Assembly: GCA_016875395.1 (NCBI GenBank)
Contig: VGRF01000011.1
Coordinates: forward strand, 1 to 59,249
DNA: 59,249 nt
Direction: 5' to 3'
Source of the DNA: Deltaproteobacteria bacterium
Lineage (GTDB): Bacteria; Myxococcota_A; UBA9160; UBA6930
Shown: one piece after another, positions 459 through 18,069 of the stretch
Numbering within the stretch: the stretch's first letter is position 1
Layout: each line of letters begins with the position of its first letter
Translations under genes and position numbers: made by a program
The notes under the pieces: model-generated
What the model was told of the DNA's origin: nothing
What the model saw: the letters and a program-made list of their open reading frames with translations, nothing else
Databases searched by the model: none

Positions 459-2072
459 ATGACGACCCGCGACGAGCGCTACGACGTGATCGTCATCGGC
501 GCCGGTGTGAGCGGCCTATACGCGCTCCACCACTTCCGCGAGATGGGCCTCTCGGTGCGCGTGTACGACGCCGCGAGCGATGTCGGCGGGACCTGGTGGT
601 ACAACCGCTACCCCGGCGCGCGCGTCGATGGCCCGGGCAGCCCCTTCTACTGTTACACGTTCTCCGCAGAGCTCATGCAGGCGTGGGACTGGCAGGAGAC
701 TCAGTCCGAGTGGTCCGAGGTGCTTGGGTACGTGCGATTCGTCGCCGACAAGCTCGACCTCCGCCGCGACATCCAGTTCGAGACGTGGGTGCGCAGTGCT
801 CGCTACCACGAAGCGGCGCAGCGCTGGAGCATCGAGACCGATCGCGGCGAGCGCGCCTCCGCGCGCTTCCTGATCTGCGCGGTCGGCGCGCTCTCGACGG
901 CGAACGTGCCGAACATCCCCGGCATCCACGACTTCGCGGGCGAGCGCTACCACACCGGCCGCTGGCCGCACGAGCCGGTCTCGTTCGCGGGCAAACGCGT
1001 CGCGGTGCTCGGTACGGGCTCGTCGGGGATTCAGTCGATCCCGGAGATCGCGAAGACTGCGGCGCACGTGACGGTGCTGCAGCGCACGCCGCAGTACTCG
1101 GCCCCGGCCGGGAACCGCCCCCTAACACCTGAGGAGCGGGCAACGGCGCGCGCCGACTTCGCGAAGTTCCGCGCGAAAATGATCGCGAACCCCGGCGGCT
1201 TCCCGTTCGATCCGAATCCGCGCGTCTCGCTCGACCACGACCGCGAGCAGCGCCGCGCCGTGTACGAAGAGCTTTGGCAGCGCGGCAGCTTCCGCTTCTT
1301 CACCGATGGCTACGGCGACGTCGCGACCAGCGAGCAAGCCAACGCCATCTTGTCCGACTTCATCCGCGACAAGATCCGGGAGATCGTGCACGACCCCGAG
1401 ATCGCGCGGAAGCTGCTGCCCGACTTCTACGTGATGACGAAGCGGCCGATTCTCGACGACGGTTACTTCGAGTGCTTCAACCGCAGCAACGTCACGCTCG
1501 TCGACCTGCGCGAGGACCCGATCGAGCGCTTCACCAAGAACAGCGTGGTGACGCGCTCGGGTGAGCATCCGATCGACATGCTCGTGCTCGCGACCGGCTT
1601 CGACGCGATCAGCGGCACGATGCTGAAGCTCGACCCGATCGGGCGCGGCGGCGTGCACCTGAAGGAGCGCTGGCACGATCGCTTCCACAACTACGTCGGC
1701 ATGACGGTCGCCGGTTTCCCGAACCTGTTCATGATTCACGGTCCGGGCTCGCCCGGCGTTCTCTACAACATGCCGCTCGGCGCCGAGCGCCAGATCGGCT
1801 GGATCGGGGAGCTGCTGCGCCACCTCGAGAAGACCGGCGCCGGTGCCGTGGAGCCGACGCCAGAGAGCGAGACTGCCTGGTCCGCCGAAGTCGCCGGCAT
1901 CGCGAACATGACGCTCTTCCCGCGCACGAACTCGTGGTGGACGGGCGCGAACATCGAGGGCAAGCCCCGCTACTTCTCCGCCTACCTCGGCGGCTCGATT
2001 TATTATGCGCGCATCGCCGACGTGGCGGCGAAGGGCTACGCGGGCTTCACGTGCGAGCCGGCGCACACGTGA
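459..2072 (+). CDS. Baeyer-Villiger type flavin monooxygenase
   Basis: A 537-residue FAD/NADPH enzyme expected to insert one oxygen atom next to a ketone (cyclic ketone, steroid or terpenoid). The FAD Rossmann motif GAGVSG is at residues 14-19 and is followed by the DVGGTWWYNRYPGARVD block typical of class I BVMOs. The fingerprint FxGxxxHxxxWP is complete at residues 159-170 (FAGERYHTGRWP). The second nucleotide motif GTGSSG is at 185-190. Length is normal for the family. The ATG at 459 follows AGGAGTGAGAG, a good ribosome site. Its neighbours (reductase, acyl-CoA dehydrogenases, phytanoyl dioxygenase) suggest catabolism of a ring or branched lipid. The substrate is not readable from sequence. 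Confidence 0.92.
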   Translation: MTTRDERYDVIVIGAGVSGLYALHHFREMGLSVRVYDAASDVGGTWWYNRYPGARVDGPGSPFYCYTFSAELMQAWDWQETQSEWSEVLGYVRFVADKLDLRRDIQFETWVRSARYHEAAQRWSIETDRGERASARFLICAVGALSTANVPNIPGIHDFAGERYHTGRWPHEPVSFAGKRVAVLGTGSSGIQSIPEIAKTAAHVTVLQRTPQYSAPAGNRPLTPEERATARADFAKFRAKMIANPGGFPFDPNPRVSLDHDREQRRAVYEELWQRGSFRFFTDGYGDVATSEQANAILSDFIRDKIREIVHDPEIARKLLPDFYVMTKRPILDDGYFECFNRSNVTLVDLREDPIERFTKNSVVTRSGEHPIDMLVLATGFDAISGTMLKLDPIGRGGVHLKERWHDRFHNYVGMTVAGFPNLFMIHGPGSPGVLYNMPLGAERQIGWIGELLRHLEKTGAGAVEPTPESETAWSAEVAGIANMTLFPRTNSWWTGANIEGKPRYFSAYLGGSIYYARIADVAAKGYAGFTCEPAHT

Positions 2073-2249: not shown

Positions 2250-3299
2250 ATGGCGATTCGCGTGATCCAGTGGACGACGGGCCACGTCGGCCGCGAAGCG
2301 GTGAAAGCGATCCTCGCGCACCCGGAGCTCGAGCTGGTCGGCGCCTACGCGTGGAGCCCCGAGAAGGACGGCCGCGACATCGGCGAGCTGTGCGGGATCG
2401 GCCGCCTCGGGATCACCGCAACACGCGACGTCGACGCGCTGATCGCACGCGGCGCGGACTGCGTGTGTTACACGCCGAACCATCCCGAGCTCGACGAGAT
2501 CTGCCGGCTGCTCGCCGCGGGGCTCGACGTCGTGGCGAGCAATCTCACGAACTGCCGCTCGTGGGGCGACGGCGCGCGGGCGCGCGTCGAACAGGCCGCG
2601 CGCGCCGGAGGCGCGACGCTGTTCGGCTCCGGGATCTTCCCCGGCTTCGCCAACTACATCGCCGCGCAGATGGCGAGCGTTAGCCACGGCTTCCGCCGCA
2701 TCCGCTTCCTCGAGTCCGTCGACGTCTCGACTTATCAGGCGATCGCGAACTACGCGAACCTCGGCTGGGGCCAGCCGCCGGCGCCGCAGTGGCTCGAAGC
2801 GAGCCGCCGCGTGCTCGGCTTCTACGGCGAGTGCCTCGACGTGATGGCGCAGATGCTCGGCGTGCCCGTCGCCGAGTCGAGCTTCTCGTGCGAGTGGGCG
2901 CTCACGCCCGCCGATCGCGAGATCTACGGCTTCCGCATGCCCGCCGGCACGATCGCGGGTCAAAAATCCAGGTGGACCGCGCGCGTCGCGGGCGAAGCGG
3001 ATCCCGTGATCGAGCTCGACGTGTGCTGGATCGCGGGCCGTGGCCTCGAGCCCGAATGGCCGATTCAGCACGGCTACACGATGCAGGTCGAGGGCAATCC
3101 GAACGTGCAGACGCGCGTCACGTTCTCGCCGGCGAAACGCAACGCGGGGCTGAAGGACTGGGTCGACATGTCGAACACCGTGACCGCGATGCCGGTGGTC
3201 GCCGCGATCCCCACCGTGTTCGCGGCGCCGCCCGGCATCCGCACGTACGCCGACCTCCCGCTGATCACGACGCGCTGGTCGCCGGGGCCGCGCGCGTGA
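2250..3299 (+). CDS. NAD(P)H-dependent dehydrogenase, DapB/2,4-diaminopentanoate dehydrogenase-like
   Basis: 349 residues. The N-terminus (IRVIQWTTGHVGREAVKAI) is the dinucleotide-binding beta-alpha-beta of the dihydrodipicolinate-reductase-like family. CYTPNHPELDEICRLLAAG and the ASNLTN segment follow where these proteins bind cofactor and substrate. The length fits the amine-dehydrogenase-like branch rather than true DapB (about 270 residues). Start ATG 2250 lies behind GAGAGCAGGCG. It follows the monooxygenase gene by 177 bp on the same strand, so the two may share a pathway. Members of this family act on amines, keto-amines or hydroxy acids, and the true substrate is unknown. Confidence 0.72.
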   Translation: MAIRVIQWTTGHVGREAVKAILAHPELELVGAYAWSPEKDGRDIGELCGIGRLGITATRDVDALIARGADCVCYTPNHPELDEICRLLAAGLDVVASNLTNCRSWGDGARARVEQAARAGGATLFGSGIFPGFANYIAAQMASVSHGFRRIRFLESVDVSTYQAIANYANLGWGQPPAPQWLEASRRVLGFYGECLDVMAQMLGVPVAESSFSCEWALTPADREIYGFRMPAGTIAGQKSRWTARVAGEADPVIELDVCWIAGRGLEPEWPIQHGYTMQVEGNPNVQTRVTFSPAKRNAGLKDWVDMSNTVTAMPVVAAIPTVFAAPPGIRTYADLPLITTRWSPGPRA

Positions 3300-5173: not shown

Positions 5174-6238
5174 TCAGCTCCGACCGCTCTGGGCGTCGGC
5201 GCGCGCCGTGAGCTCGCGCCAGAATCCCCCCGCTCCCCACTGCGCAGCGGTTCCGCCGAGCTGCTCCGCCCAGAAGCGGTCGTTGCCGAGCTCCCCGCGC
5301 CAGGCGAGCAGGCGCTGCGTGAAGAGGCGCAGGTCTTGCTCGCGCGTGAAGCCGATCGCGCCGTGCACCTGATGCGCGCCCGCGGCGCACAGGTCGGCCG
5401 CGAGATTCGCGCGCAGCTTCGCGCACGCGATCTCGAAGCCCGCCTCGCCGCAGTCGGCGGCGCGGCTCGCCGCGGTGACGGCGCAGTCCGCCGCGATTCC
5501 CTCGCTGCCCATGCACGCGAGCAGCTGCTGCACGGCTTGGAACTGCCCGATCGGCTTGCCGAACTGCACGCGCGTCTGCGCGTGTGCGATCGAGCGCGAG
5601 ATCGTCGCCGCGAGCGCGCCGGCCATCTGGCCCGCGCGCAGCAGCGCCGCCTGTGCAAAGAGCGCCGCGCCTGCGCCAGCCGCGGCAGGTGCAGACGCCG
5701 CCCGGGCGTTCTCGAAGCGCAGCGTGGCGCGCGGCTCCGCCGCGAGGTTCGCGCTCGGCTCGCAGTGCGCGGCGTGCGCGGGCGCGAGCAGCGCGACGCG
5801 CGGCGCTGCGGCGTCCCCTAACAACGCGACCACGCCTGTCGCTTCTGCGCCCCACCGCACGCGCGCGAGCGTGCCGCGGAAGAGCCCGCGCTCGGCATCG
5901 AGCTGCGCGCCGGGCGCGGCCTCGAGCGCGAGTGTGAGCGCGCCCGCGGGCCGCTCGATGCCGGCAGCCGCGAGCGCCTGCTGCGCGAGCAGTGTCTCCG
6001 CGAGTGGGATCGCAGCCGCGTGGCGCCCCACCTCGCGCGCGACGACGAGCGCGTCCTCGAAGCCTCCCCCGGCGCCGCCCTCGGCGTCGGGCACGAGCAG
6101 CGCAGGAATCCCGAGCTCCTCGACCTGCGCCCACAGCGGCGCGTCGAAGCCGGGCCGCTCCGTTTGCGACGCGAGGCGCGCGGCGGCTTCGGCGAACAGC
6201 CGGCCCACGGTCTCGGCAAGCATCTCGCGCTCACTCAT
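5174..6238 (-). CDS. acyl-CoA dehydrogenase family protein (smaller partner)
   Basis: 354 residues. N-terminal helices (PLWAQVEELGIPALLVPDAEGGAGGG) lead to a shortened middle beta domain, then the C-terminal helical domain with RVQFGKPIGQFQAVQQ and HQVHGAIGFTREQDL. The sequence is shorter and more divergent than the neighbour at 6425-7561. This asymmetry between adjacent genes is typical of alpha2beta2 acyl-CoA dehydrogenases known from actinobacterial steroid catabolism, in which only one subunit has the catalytic base. The pairing is inference. The start codon overlaps the end of a small repeat ORF by 8 nt. A motif CCCTAACAA (5816-5824) encodes Leu-Leu-Gly here. Confidence 0.88.
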   Translation of the reverse strand: MSEREMLAETVGRLFAEAAARLASQTERPGFDAPLWAQVEELGIPALLVPDAEGGAGGGFEDALVVAREVGRHAAAIPLAETLLAQQALAAAGIERPAGALTLALEAAPGAQLDAERGLFRGTLARVRWGAEATGVVALLGDAAAPRVALLAPAHAAHCEPSANLAAEPRATLRFENARAASAPAAAGAGAALFAQAALLRAGQMAGALAATISRSIAHAQTRVQFGKPIGQFQAVQQLLACMGSEGIAADCAVTAASRAADCGEAGFEIACAKLRANLAADLCAAGAHQVHGAIGFTREQDLRLFTQRLLAWRGELGNDRFWAEQLGGTAAQWGAGGFWRELTARADAQSGRS

Positions 6239-6428
6239 GCTCGACCCCGCTACCGCGTTGAACTTCGCTCGGCTGCGCCTCGCTGCGCGCTTCGCTTGCG
6301 CGTTGAACTTCGCTCGGCTGCGCCTCGCTGCGCGCTCCGCTTGCGTGTTGAACTTCGCTCGGCTGCGCCTCGCTGCCCGCTTCGCTTGCGTGTTGAACTT
6401 CGCTCGGCTCTGCCTGGCTTGCGCTCAT
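6231..6428 (-). CDS. small repeat-encoded ORF between two acyl-CoA dehydrogenases
   Basis: A 65-codon frame made almost entirely of the 45-bp repeat, giving a 15-residue unit of the form SEAQPSEVQxASxAR about four times. Its ATG overlaps the stop of the upstream dehydrogenase as ATGA (6428-6425), and its TGA overlaps the start of the downstream one by 8 nt, so translation through all three genes could be coupled. Because the repeat also occurs outside genes (47314), it may instead be an intergenic repeat that happens to stay open. No known domain is seen. Protein production is unproven. Confidence 0.35.
   Translation of the reverse strand: MSASQAEPSEVQHASEAGSEAQPSEVQHASGARSEAQPSEVQRASEARSEAQPSEVQRGSGVEHE
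6256..6420. repeat. 45-bp tandem repeat, 3 full and 1 partial copy
   Basis: Units start at 6256, 6301, 6346 and 6391; each begins (C/T)GTTGAACTTCGCTCGGCT. The first three are full 45-mers differing at only a few positions, and the fourth diverges after about 20 bases. The period is a multiple of three, so the minus-strand frame stays open. A degenerate single copy lies at 47314-47354. Confidence 0.9.
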
Positions 6429-7561
6429 CGCAGCCCCAGTCCGCGCGCGATGATTCCGCGCAGGATCTCGCGCGTGCCGCCGCGCAGCGAGAACGAGGGC
6501 GCGACCTGCAGCAGGTACGCGAGCACGCGGGCGAGATCGCTCGCGCTCGCGAGCTCCTCGTCGAGCGCGGCCTGCACGAGCCTCGGCAGCTCCTGCTCCA
6601 GGGCGTTGCCGAGATCCTTCACGACCGCCGCTTCGAGCATCGGGTCGCGACCGGCGGCGAGCTGGCCGGCGACCGAGAGCGACATCTGCCGCAGCGTCCA
6701 GAGCTGCGCGGTGGTGCGGCCGAGCAGCGCGCGCACCGCCTCGCTCGGCTGCGGCCCCGCAGCCCGTAACAACTCGACGAACAGCGCGAAGCTCGATAGG
6801 TATCGCTCGGGCCCGCTGCGCTCGAGCGAGAGCTCGCCCGTGACCTGCTTCCAGCCCGCGCCCTCGGGGCCGAGCAGCGCGCCGTCGGGCAAGAAGGCGT
6901 CGTCGAAGAACACCTCGGCGAAGTGAGCGTCGCCCACGAGATCGACGATCGGGCGCACGCGCACACCTGGCGTGCTCATCTCGATCAAGAACTGCGAGAG
7001 ACCGGCGTGTTTCTCCGCCTCGGGCCGCGTGCGCACGAGCGCGATCATCAGCTGACAGTCGTTCGCGTGCGTGGTCCAGATCTTCTGGCCGCGAATGCGC
7101 CAACCGCCGTCGACCTTGGTGGCGCGGGTTCGCACGGAAGCGAGGTCGCTGCCCGAGCCGGGCTCGCTCATGCCGATGCAGGTGTAGATCTCGCCGCGGC
7201 CCATGCCGGGCAGCCACTTCTGCGCCTGCGCCTCGTTGCCGTAACGCAGAATCGCCATGCCCGATTGGCGGTCCGCGATCCAGTGCGCCGCGACTGGCGC
7301 GCCCGCTGCGAGCAGCTCCTCGAGCACGACGTAGCGCTCGAGCGGACTGCGCTCGTGCCCGCCGAATCGCTTCGGCCACACCATGCCGATCCAGCCGCGC
7401 GCGCCGAGCTTGCGCGAGAACGCGGCGTCGAACTGCGCCCACGAGTTCGCGCGCCGTTCGGGCGCGAGCGCGGGCATCTCGGCTGCAAGGAATCCGCGGA
7501 TCTCCTCGCGGAGCTCTCGCACGGAAGCGGGGAGGTCGACTGCATCGAAACGAAACTGCAT
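6425..7561 (-). CDS. acyl-CoA dehydrogenase
   Basis: 378 residues, full-length for the FadE family. It has the N-terminal helical domain with WPKRFGGHERSPLERYVVLEELLAAGAP, the FAD-contacting block IYTCIGMSEPGSGSDLASVRT followed by GWRIRGQKIWTTHA, and the C-terminal GGTREILRGIIARGLGL, which matches the usual GGTSEIxRNIIAERVLGL ending. It should oxidise an acyl-CoA to the 2-enoyl-CoA using FAD. It is first in a minus-strand unit with the small ORF and the second dehydrogenase. Start ATG 7561 is close to the divergent phytanoyl dioxygenase gene at 7619. Motif CCGTAACAA (6764-6772) encodes Leu-Leu-Arg. Confidence 0.93.
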   Translation of the reverse strand: MQFRFDAVDLPASVRELREEIRGFLAAEMPALAPERRANSWAQFDAAFSRKLGARGWIGMVWPKRFGGHERSPLERYVVLEELLAAGAPVAAHWIADRQSGMAILRYGNEAQAQKWLPGMGRGEIYTCIGMSEPGSGSDLASVRTRATKVDGGWRIRGQKIWTTHANDCQLMIALVRTRPEAEKHAGLSQFLIEMSTPGVRVRPIVDLVGDAHFAEVFFDDAFLPDGALLGPEGAGWKQVTGELSLERSGPERYLSSFALFVELLRAAGPQPSEAVRALLGRTTAQLWTLRQMSLSVAGQLAAGRDPMLEAAVVKDLGNALEQELPRLVQAALDEELASASDLARVLAYLLQVAPSFSLRGGTREILRGIIARGLGLR

Positions 7562-7618: not shown

Positions 7619-8395
7619 ATGATCAAGCGCGTCGGCGGCAATCTCACGGTTCGAAGCGAGCCGGCGCCCGAAGCGAGCGCGCAGCTCGAGCGCGACGGCT
7701 ACGCGGTGTTGCGCGGCGTGCTGGCGCCGGAGCTCGTCGCGCACCTAACAAGCGAGATCGAGGCGACGTTCGAGACGCTGCCTCCCGAGCGCGGCCGCTC
7801 CGATCGCGCCGAGTTCCGCTACGAGATGCTGAACCGCTCCGCCGCCGCGCAGGAAGCGGTGGGCCACGCGGCGATCCTCGCCGCGATCGAGCCCCTGCTC
7901 GGAGACGACTGTCACGTCATCGCGAACACGGCGTGGAAGAATCCGCCGGAGTTCGGCGGCGGCCAGTGGCACTGCGATGCGGGCCCGCACGTCCCGCGGC
8001 CCGACGGCGTGCCCTGGGACGACCGCATCCCGTACCCGGTGTTCGCGATCGGCGCCCATCTCTACCTGCGCGACTGCCCCCTCGCGTGCGGCCCCACCGC
8101 CGTCGTTCCGGGCAGCCATCGTTCCGGACGCCTCCCGCCGTTCGAGCGCATGAACGACCCGGCGCTGAGTTATCAGGGCCGCGGCGCGGTCGCGCTCGAA
8201 GCGCAGGCGGGCGACGTCGCGCTGTTCGTCTCCGACTCGTGGCATCGCGGCATGCCGGCCCTGCCCGGCGGCACGGGGCGCCTGTTCTTGCAGGTGCACT
8301 ACGCGCGCCGCGACATCGCGCAGCGCATCCGCACGACCGTCGACGCGAATCAGCTCTCGCCGGAGGCCGCCGCGCGCATCAAGACGCCGCGCTAG
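7619..8395 (+). CDS. phytanoyl-CoA dioxygenase family protein (PhyH)
   Basis: 258 residues of a non-haem Fe(II)/2-oxoglutarate oxygenase. The facial triad is visible as H118-x-D120 in QWHCDAGPH and H209 in SDSWHRGMP, with a downstream arginine (RLFLQVHY) suited to 2-oxoglutarate binding. ERDGYAVLRGVLAPELV is the usual family N-terminus. It is divergent from the acyl-CoA dehydrogenase pair (57-bp gap), consistent with shared control of branched-chain acyl-CoA breakdown, though the substrate is not known. A CTGTTAGGG motif follows the stop at 8402-8410. Confidence 0.88.
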   Translation: MIKRVGGNLTVRSEPAPEASAQLERDGYAVLRGVLAPELVAHLTSEIEATFETLPPERGRSDRAEFRYEMLNRSAAAQEAVGHAAILAAIEPLLGDDCHVIANTAWKNPPEFGGGQWHCDAGPHVPRPDGVPWDDRIPYPVFAIGAHLYLRDCPLACGPTAVVPGSHRSGRLPPFERMNDPALSYQGRGAVALEAQAGDVALFVSDSWHRGMPALPGGTGRLFLQVHYARRDIAQRIRTTVDANQLSPEAAARIKTPR

Positions 8396-8995: not shown

Positions 8996-9454
8996 TCACT
9001 CCTCGATCACGTTCGGCTTCCCGAGCCCCTGCGCTTCGCATGCGGCCTTGTAGAACGCGAGCGTGCCGATGCCGTCGGCGACCGACTCGACCGTGCCGTC
9101 GGCGCGCAAGTTCAGGTTCACGCCGTACATGTGGAACCACACGCGCGTGTCGTTCTCGACGGCCACGAGCGTGTGCACGGAGCCCGCGGGCTCGTAGAGG
9201 AACGAGCCGGCTCGGTTCACGTAGTCGTACTCCTTGTACTTCCACGCGCCGGAGACCGTGTAGCCCCAAACCGGCCCCGTGTGGCGATGCGTCTGCACCG
9301 CGTAGCCGGCTTGGAAGACGTTCTCGACGATCCACAGCCCCTCGCCGCGCTTCACGTGCAGCACGCGCAGCTTGTTGCCGCCGCCGATCTCCACCCACGG
9401 CAACTCGTCGCGACCGATGTGCTGCGCAACCTGATTCGCGTACGGGTTCTGCAT
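8996..9454 (-). CDS. cupin-fold dioxygenase-like protein
   Basis: 152 residues from the ATG at 9454, which has AGGAGAACGCG directly upstream; the longer frame to 9541 lacks such a site. The cupin motif 1 is seen around THRHTGPVWGYTVSGAWKY and motif 2 around FLYEPAGSVHTLV, so two or three histidines and a glutamate could hold a metal. It resembles 2,4'-dihydroxyacetophenone-dioxygenase-like cupins. Substrate unknown. It is divergent from the DegT-family gene at 9601, with 146 bp between them that must hold both promoters. Confidence 0.75.
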   Translation of the reverse strand: MQNPYANQVAQHIGRDELPWVEIGGGNKLRVLHVKRGEGLWIVENVFQAGYAVQTHRHTGPVWGYTVSGAWKYKEYDYVNRAGSFLYEPAGSVHTLVAVENDTRVWFHMYGVNLNLRADGTVESVADGIGTLAFYKAACEAQGLGKPNVIEE

Positions 9455-9600
9455 CGCGTTCTCCTGTGCGGGCGCACGTTGGTAGCGCACGCACGAACGC
9501 TGCCGGACGCGAGCGAATCGCATACGGTCGCGAGCGGACACGAACGGACAAATCGAGGGTCCAGCGTCAGACGCGGAATCCTCGATTCCGGGGAGAGACG

Positions 9601-10809
9601 ATGCGCATCGAGTACGCCGGCAGCGTTCACGACGAGGAGGAGATCGCGGCGGTCGTCTCCGTGCTGCGCGGCGGCCCCTCCGCGCTGCGCATCGGGAAGC
9701 ACGTGCGCGAGTTCGAGCGGCTCGTGGCGGCGAGCTTCGGCAAGCGGCGCGGCGTCATGTGCAACAGCGGGTCTTCCGCGTTGTACCTCGCGATCGAGCT
9801 GTTAGGGCTCGCCGAGGGCGACGAGATCGTCACTTCGCCGCTGACGTTCTCGACCGACATCGCGCCGATGGTGAAGAGCCGCCTGGTGCCCGTGTTCGTG
9901 GACGTCACGCCCGACACGTTCCAGATCGACGTCGCGCAGATCGAACGGAACATCTCGCCGCGCACGAAGGCGATCCTGGCGCCGAACCTCACCGGCAACT
10001 GCCCCGACTGGGACGCGATCCGCCGCATCGCGGACACGCACGGCCTGCGCGTGATCGAGGACTCGTGCGACTGCCTCGGCGCGACGCAGGGCGGCACGCC
10101 GACGGGCACGCGCGCCGACATCTCCGTCACGAGCTTCGCGCTCGCGCACATCATCACCGCGGCGGGCACGGGCGGCATGGTGTGCGTGGACGACGAGGCG
10201 CTCGCGGATCGCTGCTTGTTGTTACGGCGCTGGGGTCGCCGCAGCGAGGTTCAGCTGTTCGGCAGCCGCAAGGGCAAGGGCGACCGCTTCTTCAGCGACC
10301 TCGACGGCATGGAGTACGACAACCTCTTCATCTTCGACGAGGTGGGTTGGAACTTCGAGCCGTCCGAGCTCTCCGCCGCGTTCGGCGTGGTGCAGATGAA
10401 GAAGCTGCCCGCGAATCTCGAACGCCGGAAGCGCAACTTCGCGATCCTGTGCGAGCGCCTCGGCCGTCACCCCGGCGCGTTCGTGCTGCCGCGCACCACG
10501 CCCGGCATCGACACCGCGTGGCACATGTTCGCCACGCTGATTCGGCCCGAGAGCGGCATTCGCCGCGCGCACTTCCAGCAGTACATGGAGCAGAGCGGCG
10601 TCGACACGCGCATGGTGTGGACCGGCAATGCCGCGCGGCAGCCCGCGTTCAAGAAGATCGCGATGCGCATCGACCCGAACGGGCTTCCGAACGCCGATCG
10701 CGTGATGGAGCACGGCGTGATCCTGCCGATGAACCACGCGCAGGGCGACGAGCAGATGCACTACATCGGCGATCTCGTCGACGCGTACGTGAAGGAGCAC
10801 GCGCGGTGA
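9601..10809 (+). CDS. DegT/DnrJ/StrS-family PLP enzyme with His in place of catalytic Lys
   Basis: 402 residues with the full sugar-aminotransferase fold: MCNSGSSALYLAIELLGL (PLP phosphate loop), VTSPLTFSTDIAPM, VIEDSCDCLGA (cofactor aspartate) and GWNFEPSELSAAFGVVQM. Where aminotransferases have SF(F/H)xxK, this protein reads SFALAHIITAAGTGG, so H183 replaces the Schiff-base lysine. The same Lys-to-His exchange is known in ColD and in the E1/RfbH 3-dehydratases, which deoxygenate C-3 of nucleotide 4-keto-6-deoxysugars. The iron-sulfur cysteines of E1 are absent, so a ColD-like, cluster-free dehydratase is the better guess. No other deoxysugar genes are nearby. The ATG sits behind GGGGAGAGACG. 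Confidence 0.85.
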   Translation: MRIEYAGSVHDEEEIAAVVSVLRGGPSALRIGKHVREFERLVAASFGKRRGVMCNSGSSALYLAIELLGLAEGDEIVTSPLTFSTDIAPMVKSRLVPVFVDVTPDTFQIDVAQIERNISPRTKAILAPNLTGNCPDWDAIRRIADTHGLRVIEDSCDCLGATQGGTPTGTRADISVTSFALAHIITAAGTGGMVCVDDEALADRCLLLRRWGRRSEVQLFGSRKGKGDRFFSDLDGMEYDNLFIFDEVGWNFEPSELSAAFGVVQMKKLPANLERRKRNFAILCERLGRHPGAFVLPRTTPGIDTAWHMFATLIRPESGIRRAHFQQYMEQSGVDTRMVWTGNAARQPAFKKIAMRIDPNGLPNADRVMEHGVILPMNHAQGDEQMHYIGDLVDAYVKEHAR

Positions 10810-11417
10810 GCGAGTCCCGCGAGCCGCGGCTGCTGCTCGCGCTCGGCGCCGTCGCGCTCATCGCCTCCGGCATCGCCCCGTACGATCGCCTCACCTGGGC
10901 GCTCGAAGTCGCGCCCGCCGTGATCACCGCCGCGATCCTCGTCGCCACGCGCCGCCGCTTCCCGCTCACGCCGCTCGCGTACCGCCTCGTCTTCCTGCAC
11001 GCGCTCATCCTGCTGCTCGGCGCGCACTACACCTACGCACGCGTCCCGGTCGGCTTCTGGGTGCAGGACGCGCTCGGCCTCGCGCGCAATCACTACGACC
11101 GCGTCGGGCACTTCATGCAGGGCTTCACGCCCGCGATCGTCGCCCGCGAGGTGTTGCTGCGGGCCTCGCCGGTTCGCGCGAACCCGTGGCTCGCGTGGCT
11201 CACGCTCTGCGTCGTGCTCGCCGCGAGCGCGTTCTACGAGTTCATCGAGTGGTGGGCCGCGCTGATCGGCGGCGTCGCCGCGGAGGCGTTCCTCGCGACG
11301 CAAGGCGACGTGTGGGACACGCAGTGGGACATGTTCCTGTGCCTGTGCGGCGCATGCGCGGCGCTCGCGCTGCTCGGGCGGCGGCATCAGCGCGAGGTGG
11401 AGCGCCTCTCGCGCTGA
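10806..11417 (+). CDS. DUF2238 (YjdF-like) inner-membrane protein
   Basis: 203 residues with about six hydrophobic segments. The conserved stretch ARNHYDRVGHFMQGFTPAIVAREVLLR and the late YEFIEWWAALIGG and GDVWDTQWDMFLCL blocks are typical of DUF2238 proteins. The GTG start (10806-10808) overlaps the TGA of the DegT-family gene by four bases, so translation is likely coupled. Role unknown; an inner-membrane location is inferred from the hydrophobic profile. Confidence 0.8.
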   Translation: MSESREPRLLLALGAVALIASGIAPYDRLTWALEVAPAVITAAILVATRRRFPLTPLAYRLVFLHALILLLGAHYTYARVPVGFWVQDALGLARNHYDRVGHFMQGFTPAIVAREVLLRASPVRANPWLAWLTLCVVLAASAFYEFIEWWAALIGGVAAEAFLATQGDVWDTQWDMFLCLCGACAALALLGRRHQREVERLSR

Positions 11418-11450
11418 TCTACCGTGCTCCCACTTCTCGAGGAGCACGCC

Positions 11451-12587
11451 ATGCACGTCGGCACCGGCATCGTCTATCAGGCCATCGGCGCAGGTCGCAC
11501 CGATCGCGAGGTGTATCAGCGCGAGCTTGCCCTCGCGGACCTCGCGGAGCCGCTCGGGTACGACTCGCTGTGGGGAGTCGAGCACCACTTCACCGACTAC
11601 ACGATGTGCCCCGACGTGCTGCAGCACCTCACCTACTTCGCGGGGCGCACCTCGCGCATTCAGCTCGGCTCGATGGTGGTGGTGCTGCCGTGGCACGACC
11701 CGGTTCGCGTCGCGGAGCAGGTCGCGATGCTCGACCACATGTCGAACGGGCGCTTCGTGTTCGGCATCGGGCGCGGGCTCGGGCGCGTCGAGTTCGAAGG
11801 CTTCGGCGTGAATCAGGGCGACTCGCGCGAGATCTTCACCGAGAGCGCGCAGATGCTGCTCGAGGGCCTCGAGCGCGGCTACGTCGAGTTCTCGGGCAAG
11901 CACATCCAGCAGGCGCGCCGCGAGATTCGGCCGCGCCCGTTCAAGTCGTTCCGCGGGCGCACGTACGCGGCGGCGGTGTCACCCGAGAGCAGCGAGATCA
12001 TGGCCCGGCTCGGCGTCGGCATCATGATCGTGCCGCAGAAGCCCTGGCCGCACGTGGTGCGGGAGCTGAAGGCGTATCGCGAGATCTATCGCGAGGTGAA
12101 CCGCGCGGATGCGCCGCCGCCGCTGCTCTCGGGCTGGGTCTTCATCGACGACGACGAGAGCGTCGCGAAGGAGCTCGCCCACAAGTACATCGGCCGGTAC
12201 TACCGCTCGGTCGTCGAGCACTACGAGCTCGACGGCACGCATCTACAGGGCCTCAAAGGCTACGAGATGTACGGGAAGATCCAAGAGAAGATGGGCGCGC
12301 CGGGCGGCGTCGACGCGGGCGTCGAGTTCTTCACGAGCCTGCATCCGTGGGGCACGCCGAAGCAGGTGTACGAGAAGATCATGGACGCGCGCGGGCTGAT
12401 CGGCGCCGAGGGCTTCGTCGCGATGTTCAGCTACGGCGGCATCCCGTACGACGTGGCGGAGCAGCAAAGCAAGCGCTTCGCGGCGGAGGTGATGCCGAAG
12501 CTGAAGGCCGTCGTGCCTCTCGCGGAGCAGCAGGTCGCGCGCGCGCGGCCCGCGCTCGCAGGCGGAGCGATCTCGGCGAGCGCTTAG
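11451..12587 (+). CDS. LLM-class flavin-dependent oxidoreductase
   Basis: 378 residues of the bacterial-luciferase-like TIM barrel. Recognisable parts are YDSLWGVEHHFTDY near the N-terminus, IQLGSMVVVLPWHDPVRVAEQ, and SNGRFVFGIGRGLGRVEFEGFG. The family uses FMN or F420 to oxidise or oxygenate small organic compounds; the long C-terminal half fits an FMN monooxygenase-like member. The ATG at 11451 has AGGAGCACGCC upstream; a GTG at 11424 would place that ribosome site inside the gene and is rejected. The stop codon shares bases with the stop of the convergent TonB-like gene (12584-12587). Confidence 0.85.
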   Translation: MHVGTGIVYQAIGAGRTDREVYQRELALADLAEPLGYDSLWGVEHHFTDYTMCPDVLQHLTYFAGRTSRIQLGSMVVVLPWHDPVRVAEQVAMLDHMSNGRFVFGIGRGLGRVEFEGFGVNQGDSREIFTESAQMLLEGLERGYVEFSGKHIQQARREIRPRPFKSFRGRTYAAAVSPESSEIMARLGVGIMIVPQKPWPHVVRELKAYREIYREVNRADAPPPLLSGWVFIDDDESVAKELAHKYIGRYYRSVVEHYELDGTHLQGLKGYEMYGKIQEKMGAPGGVDAGVEFFTSLHPWGTPKQVYEKIMDARGLIGAEGFVAMFSYGGIPYDVAEQQSKRFAAEVMPKLKAVVPLAEQQVARARPALAGGAISASA

Positions 12588-14801: not shown

Positions 14802-16109
14802 TCACCCCATTCGCGCACTCTCCAAATCGCGCAGCAGCGTACGCGTCCCTAACAAGAGCGACACCACGCCGAGGCTCATCGTCGCGAGCACGGCGATCAT
14901 CGCGACGCGCAGCGACTCCGCGCCGTAGCGCAGCGCGAGCGCGTCGCTGAGCGCGCCCATCGCCCACGGCCCGAACAGCATGCCGCCGCCGGTGATGAAG
15001 AGGATCAGCACCGAGGAGGTGACGGCGCGGATGCGCGCGGGCGCGAGGCTCTGCGCGATCGCGAACAGCACGGGCGCGTAGCCGGCGCCGACGATGCCGC
15101 TCGGCACGGACAGCCAGATCGCGAGCTTCGGGTCGGGCACGGCGCAAATCGCGATGAGGATCGGCATCGAGAACGCCACGGAGGCGGCCGCCACGCGCAG
15201 GCGCCAGCGCGGATCGAGCCGCGCGAGGCGGTCGGCGAGGAAACCCGCGAGCAGCGTGCCGGTGATCGCGGCGGCGCCGTTCACGAGGCCGTAGCTCATG
15301 CCGAACGACGCCAGCGACATGCCGTGCGAGCGCTGGAACATCTGCGGAAGCCAGGAGCCGAAGCCTGTGCCCGCAAGCGAGGCGAGCATGCCGCCGAACG
15401 CGATCGCCACGAACGTCGGGATGCGCAGCAGCAGCGCGATGCTCGAGAAGAAATCAGCGAGCGCGGAGCCGAGTGACGAGGGGCGCGGCGCGGCGCGCGC
15501 GGGCTCGCGCACCGTCGTCCACAACAACACGGCCAGCACGATGCCGGGCAAGCCCGCGACGAAGAATGCGCCGCGCCAGCCGAGCGGCTCGACGAGCAGC
15601 CCGCCCATCAGCGTGCCGAGCATCGAGCCGATCGGGACGCCGAGCTGGAACACCGAGAGCGCGAACGCGCGGCGCTCGGGCGGGAAGTAGTCGGCGATCA
15701 GCGAGTGCGCGGGCGCGGCGCCAGCGGCTTCGCCGACGCCTACGCCGATGCGCGCGAGCGCCACCTGCCACGCCGTCTTCGCGATGCCGGTGTAGGCGGT
15801 GAACGCGCTCCACACGAGCATGCCTACGGCGATCAGCTGCGTGCGCGAACGCCGATCCGCCAGCCACGCCACGGGAACGCCGAGGCCGGAGTAGAGCAGG
15901 GCGAAGGCGGGGCCGAGGAGCAGGCCCATCGTGCCGTCGGAGATCGCGAACTCGGCCTTGATCGGACCCGCGAGCATCGAGAACACGAAACGGTCGAGGT
16001 AGTTGACGACGTAGCTCGCCGAGAGCAGCGCGAGCACGTAGCTCGCGTTCGAGCGGGGCGTTTTTTCGCTCACGGCGCGCGAGTTACCCCGGCGAGCGCT
16101 CACATTCAA
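14802..16109 (-). CDS. MFS transporter, spinster-like
   Basis: 435 residues with about 12 hydrophobic helices. YVVNYLDRFVFSMLAGPIKAEF near the start and LADRRSRTQL in the first cytoplasmic loop are MFS hallmarks; FPPERRAFALSVFQLGVPIGSMLG and RARIGVGVGEA-type sequence place it among spinster-like or hexuronate/drug-type carriers. Substrate unknown. GTG 16073 is an alternative start that would remove 12 residues. It precedes the second TonB-like gene by 4 bp, so the two form one minus-strand unit. Motif CCCTAACAA (14847-14855) encodes Leu-Leu-Gly. Confidence 0.85.
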   Translation of the reverse strand: MNVSARRGNSRAVSEKTPRSNASYVLALLSASYVVNYLDRFVFSMLAGPIKAEFAISDGTMGLLLGPAFALLYSGLGVPVAWLADRRSRTQLIAVGMLVWSAFTAYTGIAKTAWQVALARIGVGVGEAAGAAPAHSLIADYFPPERRAFALSVFQLGVPIGSMLGTLMGGLLVEPLGWRGAFFVAGLPGIVLAVLLWTTVREPARAAPRPSSLGSALADFFSSIALLLRIPTFVAIAFGGMLASLAGTGFGSWLPQMFQRSHGMSLASFGMSYGLVNGAAAITGTLLAGFLADRLARLDPRWRLRVAAASVAFSMPILIAICAVPDPKLAIWLSVPSGIVGAGYAPVLFAIAQSLAPARIRAVTSSVLILFITGGGMLFGPWAMGALSDALALRYGAESLRVAMIAVLATMSLGVVSLLLGTRTLLRDLESARMG

Positions 16110-16229: not shown

Positions 16230-16504
16230 ATGCGGAAGGTGATCTAGGGTCTCATGCTGGCTTTGCGCTCGCCGCTGTCGGCTGCGCGTCGACCTCGGAC
16301 ATGGACACGCTGCGCAGCGACGTGAACGCGGCGCGCTCGGAAGCGGCCGAGGCGAAGCGCGCCGCGGACGAAGCGAAGGCGGCGGCAGCGGCAGCACAGC
16401 AAGAAGCGAGCGCCGCGCGCTCGGCCGCGGATGCAGCCGCGGCGGAGGCCAAGACGGCGAGCGAGAAGGCCGACCGCATCTTTCAGCGCTCTCTGCACAA
16501 ATAA
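16230..16504 (+). pseudogene. Lpp-like alanine-zipper lipoprotein with broken leader
   Basis: The body reads FALAAVGCASTSDMDTLRSD, then an Ala/Glu/Lys heptad helix and a C-terminal ...RSLHK. The lipobox (AAVGC), alanine-zipper helix and terminal lysine match Braun-type lipoproteins, whose last lysine is joined to peptidoglycan by L,D-transpeptidases, two of which follow. The plausible start, ATG 16230 behind GGGAGAG, reads MRKVI and then hits TAG (16245-16247); it must also change frame before the lipobox. One added T in TTT (16262-16264) plus loss of the TAG gives MLAFALAAVGC. Decay or sequence error are both possible. No other good start exists in the lipoprotein frame. Confidence 0.6.
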
Positions 16505-16538
16505 CGAGCGCTTCTCGATCGGGGCGCGGGAGGCGCAG

Positions 16539-17111
16539 GTGCAGCCGGCGGCTCAAGAGGCCGCGGCTGACCTGTTCAATGCGACCGAGGGTGAGCGGGC
16601 GGGGCTTCGCCCCGCAGGCCAGCTACTCGGAGATGACACGTCCGGGCCGAGCTGCGCGGAGCGCGTTGCGTCCGGCGAGATTCGCCCGCGCGTGGAACGC
16701 GTGCTCGTGGAGAAGAGCGCGCGGCGCCTCACGCTCTGGTTCGCGGGCTTCGCGGTGCGCGAGTACCGCGTCGCGCTCGGCCGCGAGCCGGTCGGCGACA
16801 AGCGCTTCGCGCGCGATGGGCGCACGCCCGAGGGCGTGTACACGATCGACGCGCGCAATCCGGGCAGCGAGTTCTACCGCTCGCTCCACATCTCGTATCC
16901 GAGCGCGGCCGACCTGAAGGCTGCGCGCGAGGCCGGGCGCGATCCGGGCGGCGAGATCATGCTTCACGGGCTGCCGAACGGTGCAGACTGGGTGGCGCGC
17001 GATCACGCGCGCTTCGATTGGACCGAGGGCTGCATCGCGGTCACGAACGAAGAGATCGACGAGATTTGGGAGCTGGTCGCGGATGGCACGCCGATCGAGA
17101 TTCGCCCGTAA
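16539..17111 (+). CDS. L,D-transpeptidase (YkuD) family protein
   Basis: About 190 residues. The catalytic YkuD domain starts near VERVLVEKSARRLTLWFAGF and contains GRTPEGVYTIDARNPGSEFY, IMLHGLPNG and DWTEGCIAVTNEEIDEIW, so the histidine and the (S/T)xGC cysteine are present. Such enzymes make 3-3 cross-links or attach lipoproteins to peptidoglycan. The N-terminus is unsatisfactory: no signal peptide can be read in any frame, and GTG 16539 (behind GGGAGG) is only the best available start. The stretch before residue 50 includes a perfect hairpin and may be non-coding. The 3' end overlaps the next gene by 29 nt. Confidence 0.7.
   Translation: MQPAAQEAAADLFNATEGERAGLRPAGQLLGDDTSGPSCAERVASGEIRPRVERVLVEKSARRLTLWFAGFAVREYRVALGREPVGDKRFARDGRTPEGVYTIDARNPGSEFYRSLHISYPSAADLKAAREAGRDPGGEIMLHGLPNGADWVARDHARFDWTEGCIAVTNEEIDEIWELVADGTPIEIRP
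16599..16615. terminator. short perfect hairpin, possible terminator
   Basis: GCGGGGC-TTC-GCCCCGC: a 7-bp perfect G+C stem with a 3-base loop. It lies inside the uncertain N-terminal part of the first L,D-transpeptidase frame and after the lipoprotein gene. No U-tract follows, so it may be a structural pause or an end signal for the lipoprotein transcript. Confidence 0.35.
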
Positions 17112-18069
17112 CAACTCGGCGCTCGCGCTCGCCGCGGGCCTCGCGCTGGCGGGCTGTGGCTCGCTGCCGAGATTCGAGCTCGCGCCGAAGCCCGCGCCGG
17201 CGCATGCGCTCGAGAATCCGCCTCCGTCGGCTGATTTGGTCGGGCGCCTCTCGTTTCGCGAGGCGAAGGCGGAGGACACCTTCGTCGATCTCGCGATCGA
17301 GCTCGGCGTCGGATACCTCGAGCTCGCCGAGGCGAACCAGGAGATCGACCCCTGGGTGCCGACCGCCGGCGCGCGCCTCGTGATTCCCGACGTGCACTTG
17401 CTTCCCGCCGGCGCGCGCGAGGGCATCGTCGTCAACACGGGCGACCTGCGGCTCTACTACTTCGCGCCCGGCGAAGCGCCGCGCAGCTACCCGATCGGCG
17501 TGGCGAAGGAAGGTTTCGCGACGCCGCAGGGCACGACCAAGGTGACGCGCAAGCAGAAGGACCCGACGTGGTACCCGGGCCCGACCGCGCGCCGCGACGA
17601 TCCTTCGCTGAAGCGCGCGGTTCCGCCCGGCCCCGATAACCGCCTCGGCGCGTACGCGTTGTATCTCGGCTGGCCCTCCTACCTCATTCACGGCACGAAC
17701 GATCCCGCGGGCGTCGGGCGAAACACCTCCCGCGGCTGCATTCGCCTCTACCCCGGGCACATCGAGGAGCTGTTCGCGGCCGTGCCGATCGGCACCAAGG
17801 TGCGCGTGACGCACGAGCCGGTGAAGACGGGCTGGGTCGCGGGCGAGCTCTATCTCGAGGTGCACCCCGATCGCGAGCGCGCGCTCGCCTTCGATCAGGG
17901 CGAGAAGCTCGTCCGCGAGCCCGCTCGCGACTTGCGCGCGCTCGTCACGAAGGCGGCCGGCGCAGAGCTTGCGCGCGTCGACTGGGATCGCGTCGCGCGC
18001 GCCTCGCTCGCGAGCGCGGGGATCCCGGTGCGCGTCACGCAGCCCGCTGCGACTGTGGCTGCGGACTGA
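17083..18069 (+). CDS. lipoprotein L,D-transpeptidase with LysM-like region
   Basis: 328 residues from ATG 17083. The leader MARRSRFARNNS is followed by a hydrophobic stretch and lipobox LALAGC (Cys25), so it is an outer- or inner-membrane lipoprotein. Residues of about 55-100 (KAEDTFVDLAIELGVGYLEL, then ANQEIDPWVPTAGARLVIP) are LysM-like. The YkuD domain follows with TPQGTTKVTRKQKDPTWYPG and the active-site stretch LIHGTNDPAGVG ... TSRGCIRLYPG. This is the ErfK/YbiS/YcfS arrangement that links Braun lipoprotein to peptidoglycan. It overlaps the previous transpeptidase by 29 nt and the convergent desaturase by 35 bp. The stop of the previous gene lies in CCGTAACAA (17106-17114). Confidence 0.9.
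   Translation: MARRSRFARNNSALALAAGLALAGCGSLPRFELAPKPAPAHALENPPPSADLVGRLSFREAKAEDTFVDLAIELGVGYLELAEANQEIDPWVPTAGARLVIPDVHLLPAGAREGIVVNTGDLRLYYFAPGEAPRSYPIGVAKEGFATPQGTTKVTRKQKDPTWYPGPTARRDDPSLKRAVPPGPDNRLGAYALYLGWPSYLIHGTNDPAGVGRNTSRGCIRLYPGHIEELFAAVPIGTKVRVTHEPVKTGWVAGELYLEVHPDRERALAFDQGEKLVREPARDLRALVTKAAGAELARVDWDRVARASLASAGIPVRVTQPAATVAAD

Follow-up and report, generated by a model that had tools for sequence, protein, structure and literature searches.

A DegT/DnrJ/EryC1/StrS protein encoded in the window, the 59,249-nucleotide stretch of deltaproteobacterial DNA analyzed here, represents a real, conserved, and probably misannotated branch of the DegT family. In a review (PMC8987622), Lys-to-His DegT enzymes are presented as deoxygenases that act on nucleotide sugars in pathways to surface polysaccharides and antibiotics. 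Since the present clade lies beside breakdown genes rather than sugar genes, its members may remove hydroxyls from quite different molecules. We propose, at about an even chance of being right, that they are lysine-less, PMP/PLP-dependent reductive dehydroxylases with ColD-type chemistry, derived from enzymes of nucleotide-sugar biosynthesis and taken over by catabolism, perhaps that of steroids or terpenoids.

Histidine in place of the PLP lysine

The DegT gene is an open reading frame of 402 aa running from an ATG to a TGA codon (Table 1), with a Shine-Dalgarno-like GGGGAGAG upstream of its start, and its product matched PF01041 with 266.7 bits (E value, 4.5e-79; gathering score, 19.8). The first-pass annotation had proposed that His183 stands where the PLP lysine would be expected. 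In an alignment of 103 sequences, the window segment SF-ALA-H183-IITAAGTGG aligned with SF-YPA-H220-HIT of E1, placing His183 in the column of E1 H220, the residue that is mutated in the E1 H220K structure 3bb8; the spacing from the histidine to the GG pair was one residue longer than in E1. All members of the Fe-S-free clade (82/82) had histidine in this column, as did E1, ColD, and the RfbH proteins aligned (three rows), and the 16 Lys-type DegT rows had lysine (16/16). The PLP-binding lysine after SF.xx that marks Lys-type sugar aminotransferases was absent from the window protein and from each of the 82 clade members, and no other lysine aligned at this column. The proposed replacement was thus confirmed, and since the histidine is common to the whole clade and to E1, ColD, and RfbH, a misalignment or a mutation peculiar to this one protein does not account for it.

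The Fe-S cysteines of E1 had likewise been reported as missing. Among the ligands C193, C251, C253, and C261, only C193 has an equivalent in the window protein (C156); equivalents of the other three were not found there in the same alignment, whereas the three RfbH rows retained 4/4. His183, Asp154, Ser178, Gly191-192, Arg209, Trp211, and Arg213 were invariant across 56 to 63 diverse sequences, and the positions kept throughout the clade comprised S56-G57, D154, S178-F179, H183, G191-G192, R209, W211-G212-R213, W307, R337, and G342-N343..R346.P348. Asp154 presumably corresponds to the aspartate partner of the pyridine nitrogen in the aspartate-aminotransferase fold. The database label "aminotransferase" is probably wrong for the whole Lys-less, Fe-S-free clade.

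Table 1. Features of the window, with positions counted from its first nucleotide
Feature	Position	Strand	Evidence
Baeyer-Villiger-type flavin monooxygenase, PtlE-like	459..2072	+	282 bits, below cut-off of 1100
Acyl-CoA dehydrogenase, probable small subunit, IpdE2-like	5174..6238	-	95 bits, below cut-off of 450
Acyl-CoA dehydrogenase, probable large subunit	6425..7561	-	Best PDB match Tcur3483 (6wy9; E value, 4.7e-41), then 4x28
Phytanoyl-CoA dioxygenase family protein	7619..8395	+	PF05721; E value, 2e-17
Cupin (Cupin_7), divergent; distantly like 2,4'-dihydroxyacetophenone dioxygenase, which cleaves an alpha-hydroxyketone	8996..9541	-	
Lys-less (His183), Fe-S-free DegT-fold protein, predicted PMP/PLP-dependent dehydroxylase	9601..10809	+	PF01041, PDB sequence and fold matches, trees
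Asp154 codon	10060..10062	+	Residue invariant in both conservation alignments
Active-site motif S178-F-A-L-A-H183-I-I-T-A-A-G-T-G-G192	10132..10176	+	103-sequence alignment, invariant columns
His183 codon, in place of PLP lysine	10147-10149	+	103-sequence alignment
DUF2238 membrane protein, overlapping the 3' end of the DegT gene by 4 bp (GTGA)	10806..11417	+	PF09997, 195 bits
Luciferase-like flavin monooxygenase, 6 bp past DUF2238, co-directional	11424..12587	+	PF00296, 215.6 bits; luciferase alpha-like
MFS transporter that may serve the region as an importer	14802..16109	-	TIGR00893/00895, below cut-off

Kinship with E1/RfbH and ColD

When the window protein was searched against the PDB with phmmer, E1 (3bcx and 3bb8) ranked first and ColD second. 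An AlphaFold2 model built on a 56-row alignment (pLDDT, 95.3; pTM, 0.93) gave the same top match in Foldseek (E1; TM score, 0.91; rmsd, 2.2), with ColD structures at TM scores of 0.86 to 0.90, interspersed with a few Lys-type sugar aminotransferases that scored about as high. Phylogenies of 103 proteins (quick tree) and 42 proteins (careful tree) agreed. In the careful tree, all His proteins formed one clade (support, 100/96), and the Fe-S-free His group formed one clade (100/100) beside E1/RfbH; ColD, a long branch, was tentatively left out of the group of E1 and the window protein, with support of 86/23. The relationship to E1/RfbH and ColD suggested by the first-pass annotation was supported.

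Kinship with E1/RfbH did not extend to membership. E1/RfbH (CDP-6-deoxy-L-threo-D-glycero-4-hexulose-3-dehydrase) shares with the window protein the fold and the histidine for lysine, and D154, S178, W211, R213, W307, R337, and the GN..RQP motif are common to E1 and the window clade. However, identity is 29%, three of the four Fe-S cysteines are gone, the best NCBIfam match, RfbH (NF011936), reached 275.4 bits against an equivalog cut-off of 423, and the window branch has no rfbF or rfbG neighbors. Because the Fe-S site, the model cut-off, and the pathway genes all fail, the window protein is not an RfbH member. The window protein could belong with ColD (GDP-4-keto-6-deoxy-D-mannose-3-dehydratase; 2gms and 3b8x), which resembles it in having histidine for lysine and no Fe-S site; identity is 27 to 28%, and no colitose genes were recognized near the window DegT gene.

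Separation from nucleotide-sugar relatives

Within the Fe-S-free clade, a rhizobial/roseobacter (alphaproteobacterial) group was basal and lay outside a derived clade (support, 96/99) that includes the window protein. Members of the basal group reside in CDP-sugar operons containing rfbF, rfbG, and DegT, usually with a methyltransferase, a ketoreductase, and a glycosyltransferase, as judged from annotation and, for the unannotated loci L100 and L104, from tblastn, which found no methyltransferase match in L100. The uncharacterized His-type DegT proteins of these operons (L099, L100, L102, L104, and L105) are 46 to 50% identical to the window protein, lack the Fe-S cysteines, and carry a His motif of the same type (SFYGSHVI). 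They differ from the window clade at about 13 clade-specific positions; L61, S84, D86, A180, R210, E216, and W340, among others, systematically set the window protein apart. At A180, two residues past Ser178, tyrosine in the CDP-operon group is replaced by alanine in the window clade, and these differences, the loss of the aromatic residue included, fit a changed pocket. Three residues of E1 (Arg337, Asn343, and Arg346 in window numbering) are shared by the window clade, so nucleotide binding could still occur. As a separate observation, the five operons combine an Fe-S-free, 3-dehydratase-like DegT with, in most cases, a SAM methyltransferase, and they possibly make an unassigned CDP-3-deoxy or branched sugar.

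The absence of any nucleotide-sugar gene nearby, noted in the first-pass annotation, was supported: across the entire 59-kb window and the other loci, tblastn detected rfbF, rfbG, and the methyltransferase, ketoreductase, and glycosyltransferase genes in 0/74 non-CDP loci, the whole window among them. In the window genome, moreover, no match to TIGR02622 or TIGR02623 (CDP-glucose 4,6-dehydratase and glucose-1-phosphate cytidylyltransferase) exceeded the cut-off; CDP-glucose 4,6-dehydratase did so in 2 of 19 carrier genomes, the window genome not among them. A GDP-mannose 4,6-dehydratase gene (gmd) is present in the window genome, and the ColD substrate could thus be made in the cell.

These data bear on the possibility that the window protein is an ordinary, ColD-like nucleotide-sugar 3-dehydratase acting on a GDP- or CDP-4-keto-6-deoxyhexose, with its partner genes merely unlinked. 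The CDP-sugar operons of the basal relatives, the RfbH model as best NCBIfam match, the three residues held in common with E1, and gmd would all suit such an enzyme. We nevertheless regard it as unlikely, given the CDP-sugar partner genes missing from all 74 loci, a window genome without rfbF and rfbG, an RfbH score far under the cut-off, residues 61, 84, 86, 180, 210, 216, and 340 unlike those of the CDP-operon group, and the tight operon that the Rhodococcus DegT gene forms with a steroid aldolase module (see below). Since the basal members belong to CDP-sugar operons and the window branch to catabolic ones, C-3 dehydration of a nucleotide sugar is probably right as to the chemistry and probably wrong as to the present substrate. 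The window branch arose inside a lineage of CDP-4-keto-6-deoxyglucose-type dehydratases and would then have been recruited to catabolism.

Catabolic gene contexts and a possible partner SDR

Neighboring genes were called with a GC-frame gene caller that was checked against the annotation of L099. In the derived clade, they encoded short-chain dehydrogenases/reductases (SDRs), acyl-CoA dehydrogenases, PF04909 amidohydrolase-type proteins, KstD-like flavoproteins, P450s, Baeyer-Villiger-type and luciferase-like monooxygenases, MaoC hydratases, CoA ligases, and MFS transporters, so that by gene context the window branch is probably catabolic. The PF04909 gene overlaps the DegT gene by 4 bp in some Acidimicrobiia, and the nearest solved relatives of its product are PtmU3 and DitZ; this family spans carboxylases, hydratases, hydrolases, and dinuclear monooxygenases (PMC10811679).

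SDR genes occupied 26 of 153 positions directly adjacent to DegT (±1), compared to 18 of 383 at ±4 to 6, counts that ignore relatedness, and 25 of the 26 lay on the DegT strand. In a tree of 65 neighboring SDRs, a 12-row clade (support, 100) consisted entirely of members co-directional with DegT and no more than two genes away, from Acidimicrobiia, Frankia, Rhodococcus, and two Myxococcota. The same subfamily was also found away from DegT. In the window, no SDR lies within 6 genes of DegT, and the closest relative of the subfamily in that genome is only 45% identical.

In four Rhodococcus genomes (4 loci), DegT is part of a tight, TetR-linked operon in the order ChsH2-type MaoC, ChsH2 zinc-ribbon/OB (DUF35), ChsH1-like protein, Ltp2-like aldolase, DegT, SDR, thiolase, and three acyl-CoA dehydrogenases. 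The Ltp2-like protein matched 6ok1 with an E value of 2.7e-166. The ChsH1-ChsH2-Ltp2 module takes off the last steroid side-chain carbons as propionyl-CoA, leaving a 17-ketosteroid (PMC11321319). Other lineages, unlike Rhodococcus with DegT between the Ltp2-like and SDR genes, have different neighbors, and the window does not show this embedding among ChsH2, ChsH1, and Ltp2 genes. The flanks of the Rhodococcus island appear, from called open reading frames only, to be unrelated genes, and HsaA, a gene for ring degradation, is at another place on the chromosome. We know of no DegT-type enzyme described as part of this module, and literature searches on DegT enzymes in catabolism returned nothing relevant. 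The clade is also represented in culturable species, namely, Rhodococcus erythropolis and R. globerulus.

Steroid/terpenoid-type markers (KstD, Ltp2, amidohydrolase, BVMO, and ACAD) were counted around DegT in Myxococcota and compared to 40 random 20-kb regions of the DegT-bearing Myxococcota genomes. They were not significantly enriched (12/35 DegT loci versus 11/40 random regions; P = 0.62), and the neighborhood argument for steroids in Myxococcota was dropped. SDR density, measured with one query, gave too few matches in either set. HsaA over the cut-off and the clade occurred in the same Myxococcota genome 12 times against 0.9 expected (379 genomes) and, within the 61 nearest relatives, 4 times against 1.1 expected (P = 0.011), an association confounded by phylogeny; the window genome has no HsaA over the cut-off. 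Because Myxococcota genomes are rich in such markers, it is the Rhodococcus operon and the HsaA co-occurrence that speak for a steroid link. The substrate in Rhodococcus, and perhaps generally, may be a steroid- or terpenoid-like compound, which we treat as the leading hypothesis and not as a result.

Surroundings of the DegT gene in the window

The DUF2238 membrane protein had been described as coupled to DegT, and the overlap of the two genes is real (Table 1). A meaningful link to DegT did not emerge, since DUF2238 was confined to the window's own locus among the fetched homologous loci; it was rejected as a partner. The divergent cupin is real and occupies the same place in only 3 other loci (L006, L007, and L011). 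The luciferase-like monooxygenase belongs to a sequence cluster that recurs near DegT in 20 loci, and relatives of the PtlE-like monooxygenase occur near DegT in 6 other loci. Tcur3483 and 4x28, matched by the large acyl-CoA dehydrogenase subunit, are steroid acyl-CoA dehydrogenases. Two further observations concern the window itself. Positions 2250-3299 encode a DapB_N oxidoreductase, 2,4-diaminopentanoate-dehydrogenase-like with a low score, and a related type adjoins or is near DegT in three other loci (L116, L136, and L138). Two adjoining L,D-transpeptidase (YkuD) genes overlap by ~28 bp at 16431-18069.

Proposed reaction

In E1, ColD, and SpnQ, the ketone of the substrate is bound by PMP as a Schiff base, the histidine that replaces lysine takes the C4' proton, and the adjacent hydroxyl leaves (PMC8987622). 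By analogy, PMP in the window protein would form a Schiff base with a substrate ketone, His183 would take the C4' proton, and the neighboring hydroxyl would be expelled; the resulting enamine would hydrolyze to a deoxy-ketone and ammonia, leaving PLP. As in ColD, transamination with glutamate as the donor would then restore PMP. Because there is no Fe-S site, the ColD route is the natural one to propose, and with PMP renewed from glutamate, neither an Fe-S cluster nor a reductase would be needed. A partner SDR may provide the ketone used by the DegT enzyme by oxidizing a vicinal diol at one of its two hydroxyls.

A lysine-independent aminotransferase or deaminase, which would swap an amino for a keto group or the reverse on a compound being degraded, such as an amine-bearing alkaloid, with the hydroxyl retained, seems improbable to us. 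ColD does renew PMP from glutamate without a lysine, and SpnQ transaminates in vitro, but ColD and E1 showed no transferase activity under SpnQ's conditions (PMC8987622); known relatives with the histidine are dehydratases, and no recurring amine-handling gene was identified among the neighbors. A noncatalytic or regulatory homologue, for which a missing PLP lysine can be a sign and which would agree with neighbors differing from lineage to lineage, is very improbable, given the invariant residues listed above and a His183 that is the same histidine as in proven catalysts.

The size of the clade (over 70 homologues), its spread over three or more phyla, its catabolic contexts, and one steroid-aldolase-type operon suggest that B6-dependent deoxygenation has been recruited for degradation; if so, this would be a route of hydroxyl removal without radicals, flavins, or Fe-S clusters. 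A bolder version, possible rather than likely, is that these are widespread PMP-dependent reductive dehydroxylases for steroid or terpenoid alpha-ketols made by the partner SDR from a vicinal diol, which would be the first catabolic use of ColD/E1 chemistry on non-nucleotide polycyclic substrates.

Distribution and paralogues

Hosts of the derived clade include Myxococcota, Acidimicrobiia, Frankia, Rhodococcus, Nocardia, Embleya, and Chloroflexi. DegT occurs as 2 to 4 paralogues in several Myxococcota genomes; in five of them (G174, G229, G335, G347, and G356), 3 or 4 divergent His-type paralogues coexist, which suggests several substrates. One Myxococcota paralogue group, 43% identical (L130, L132, L133, L137, and L139), has a partly conserved neighborhood of its own, with a SnoaL-like protein, an enoyl-CoA hydratase, a 380-aa protein without a Pfam match, a glutamine-synthetase-like protein, a Rieske oxygenase, and a beta-lactamase-fold esterase. 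The DegT gene and neighborhood of L006 (CAMDCC010000254.1), labeled as a Bifidobacterium breve MAG, are near-identical to those of L007, from a lake Acidimicrobiia MAG, and the L006 record is probably mislabeled or misbinned.
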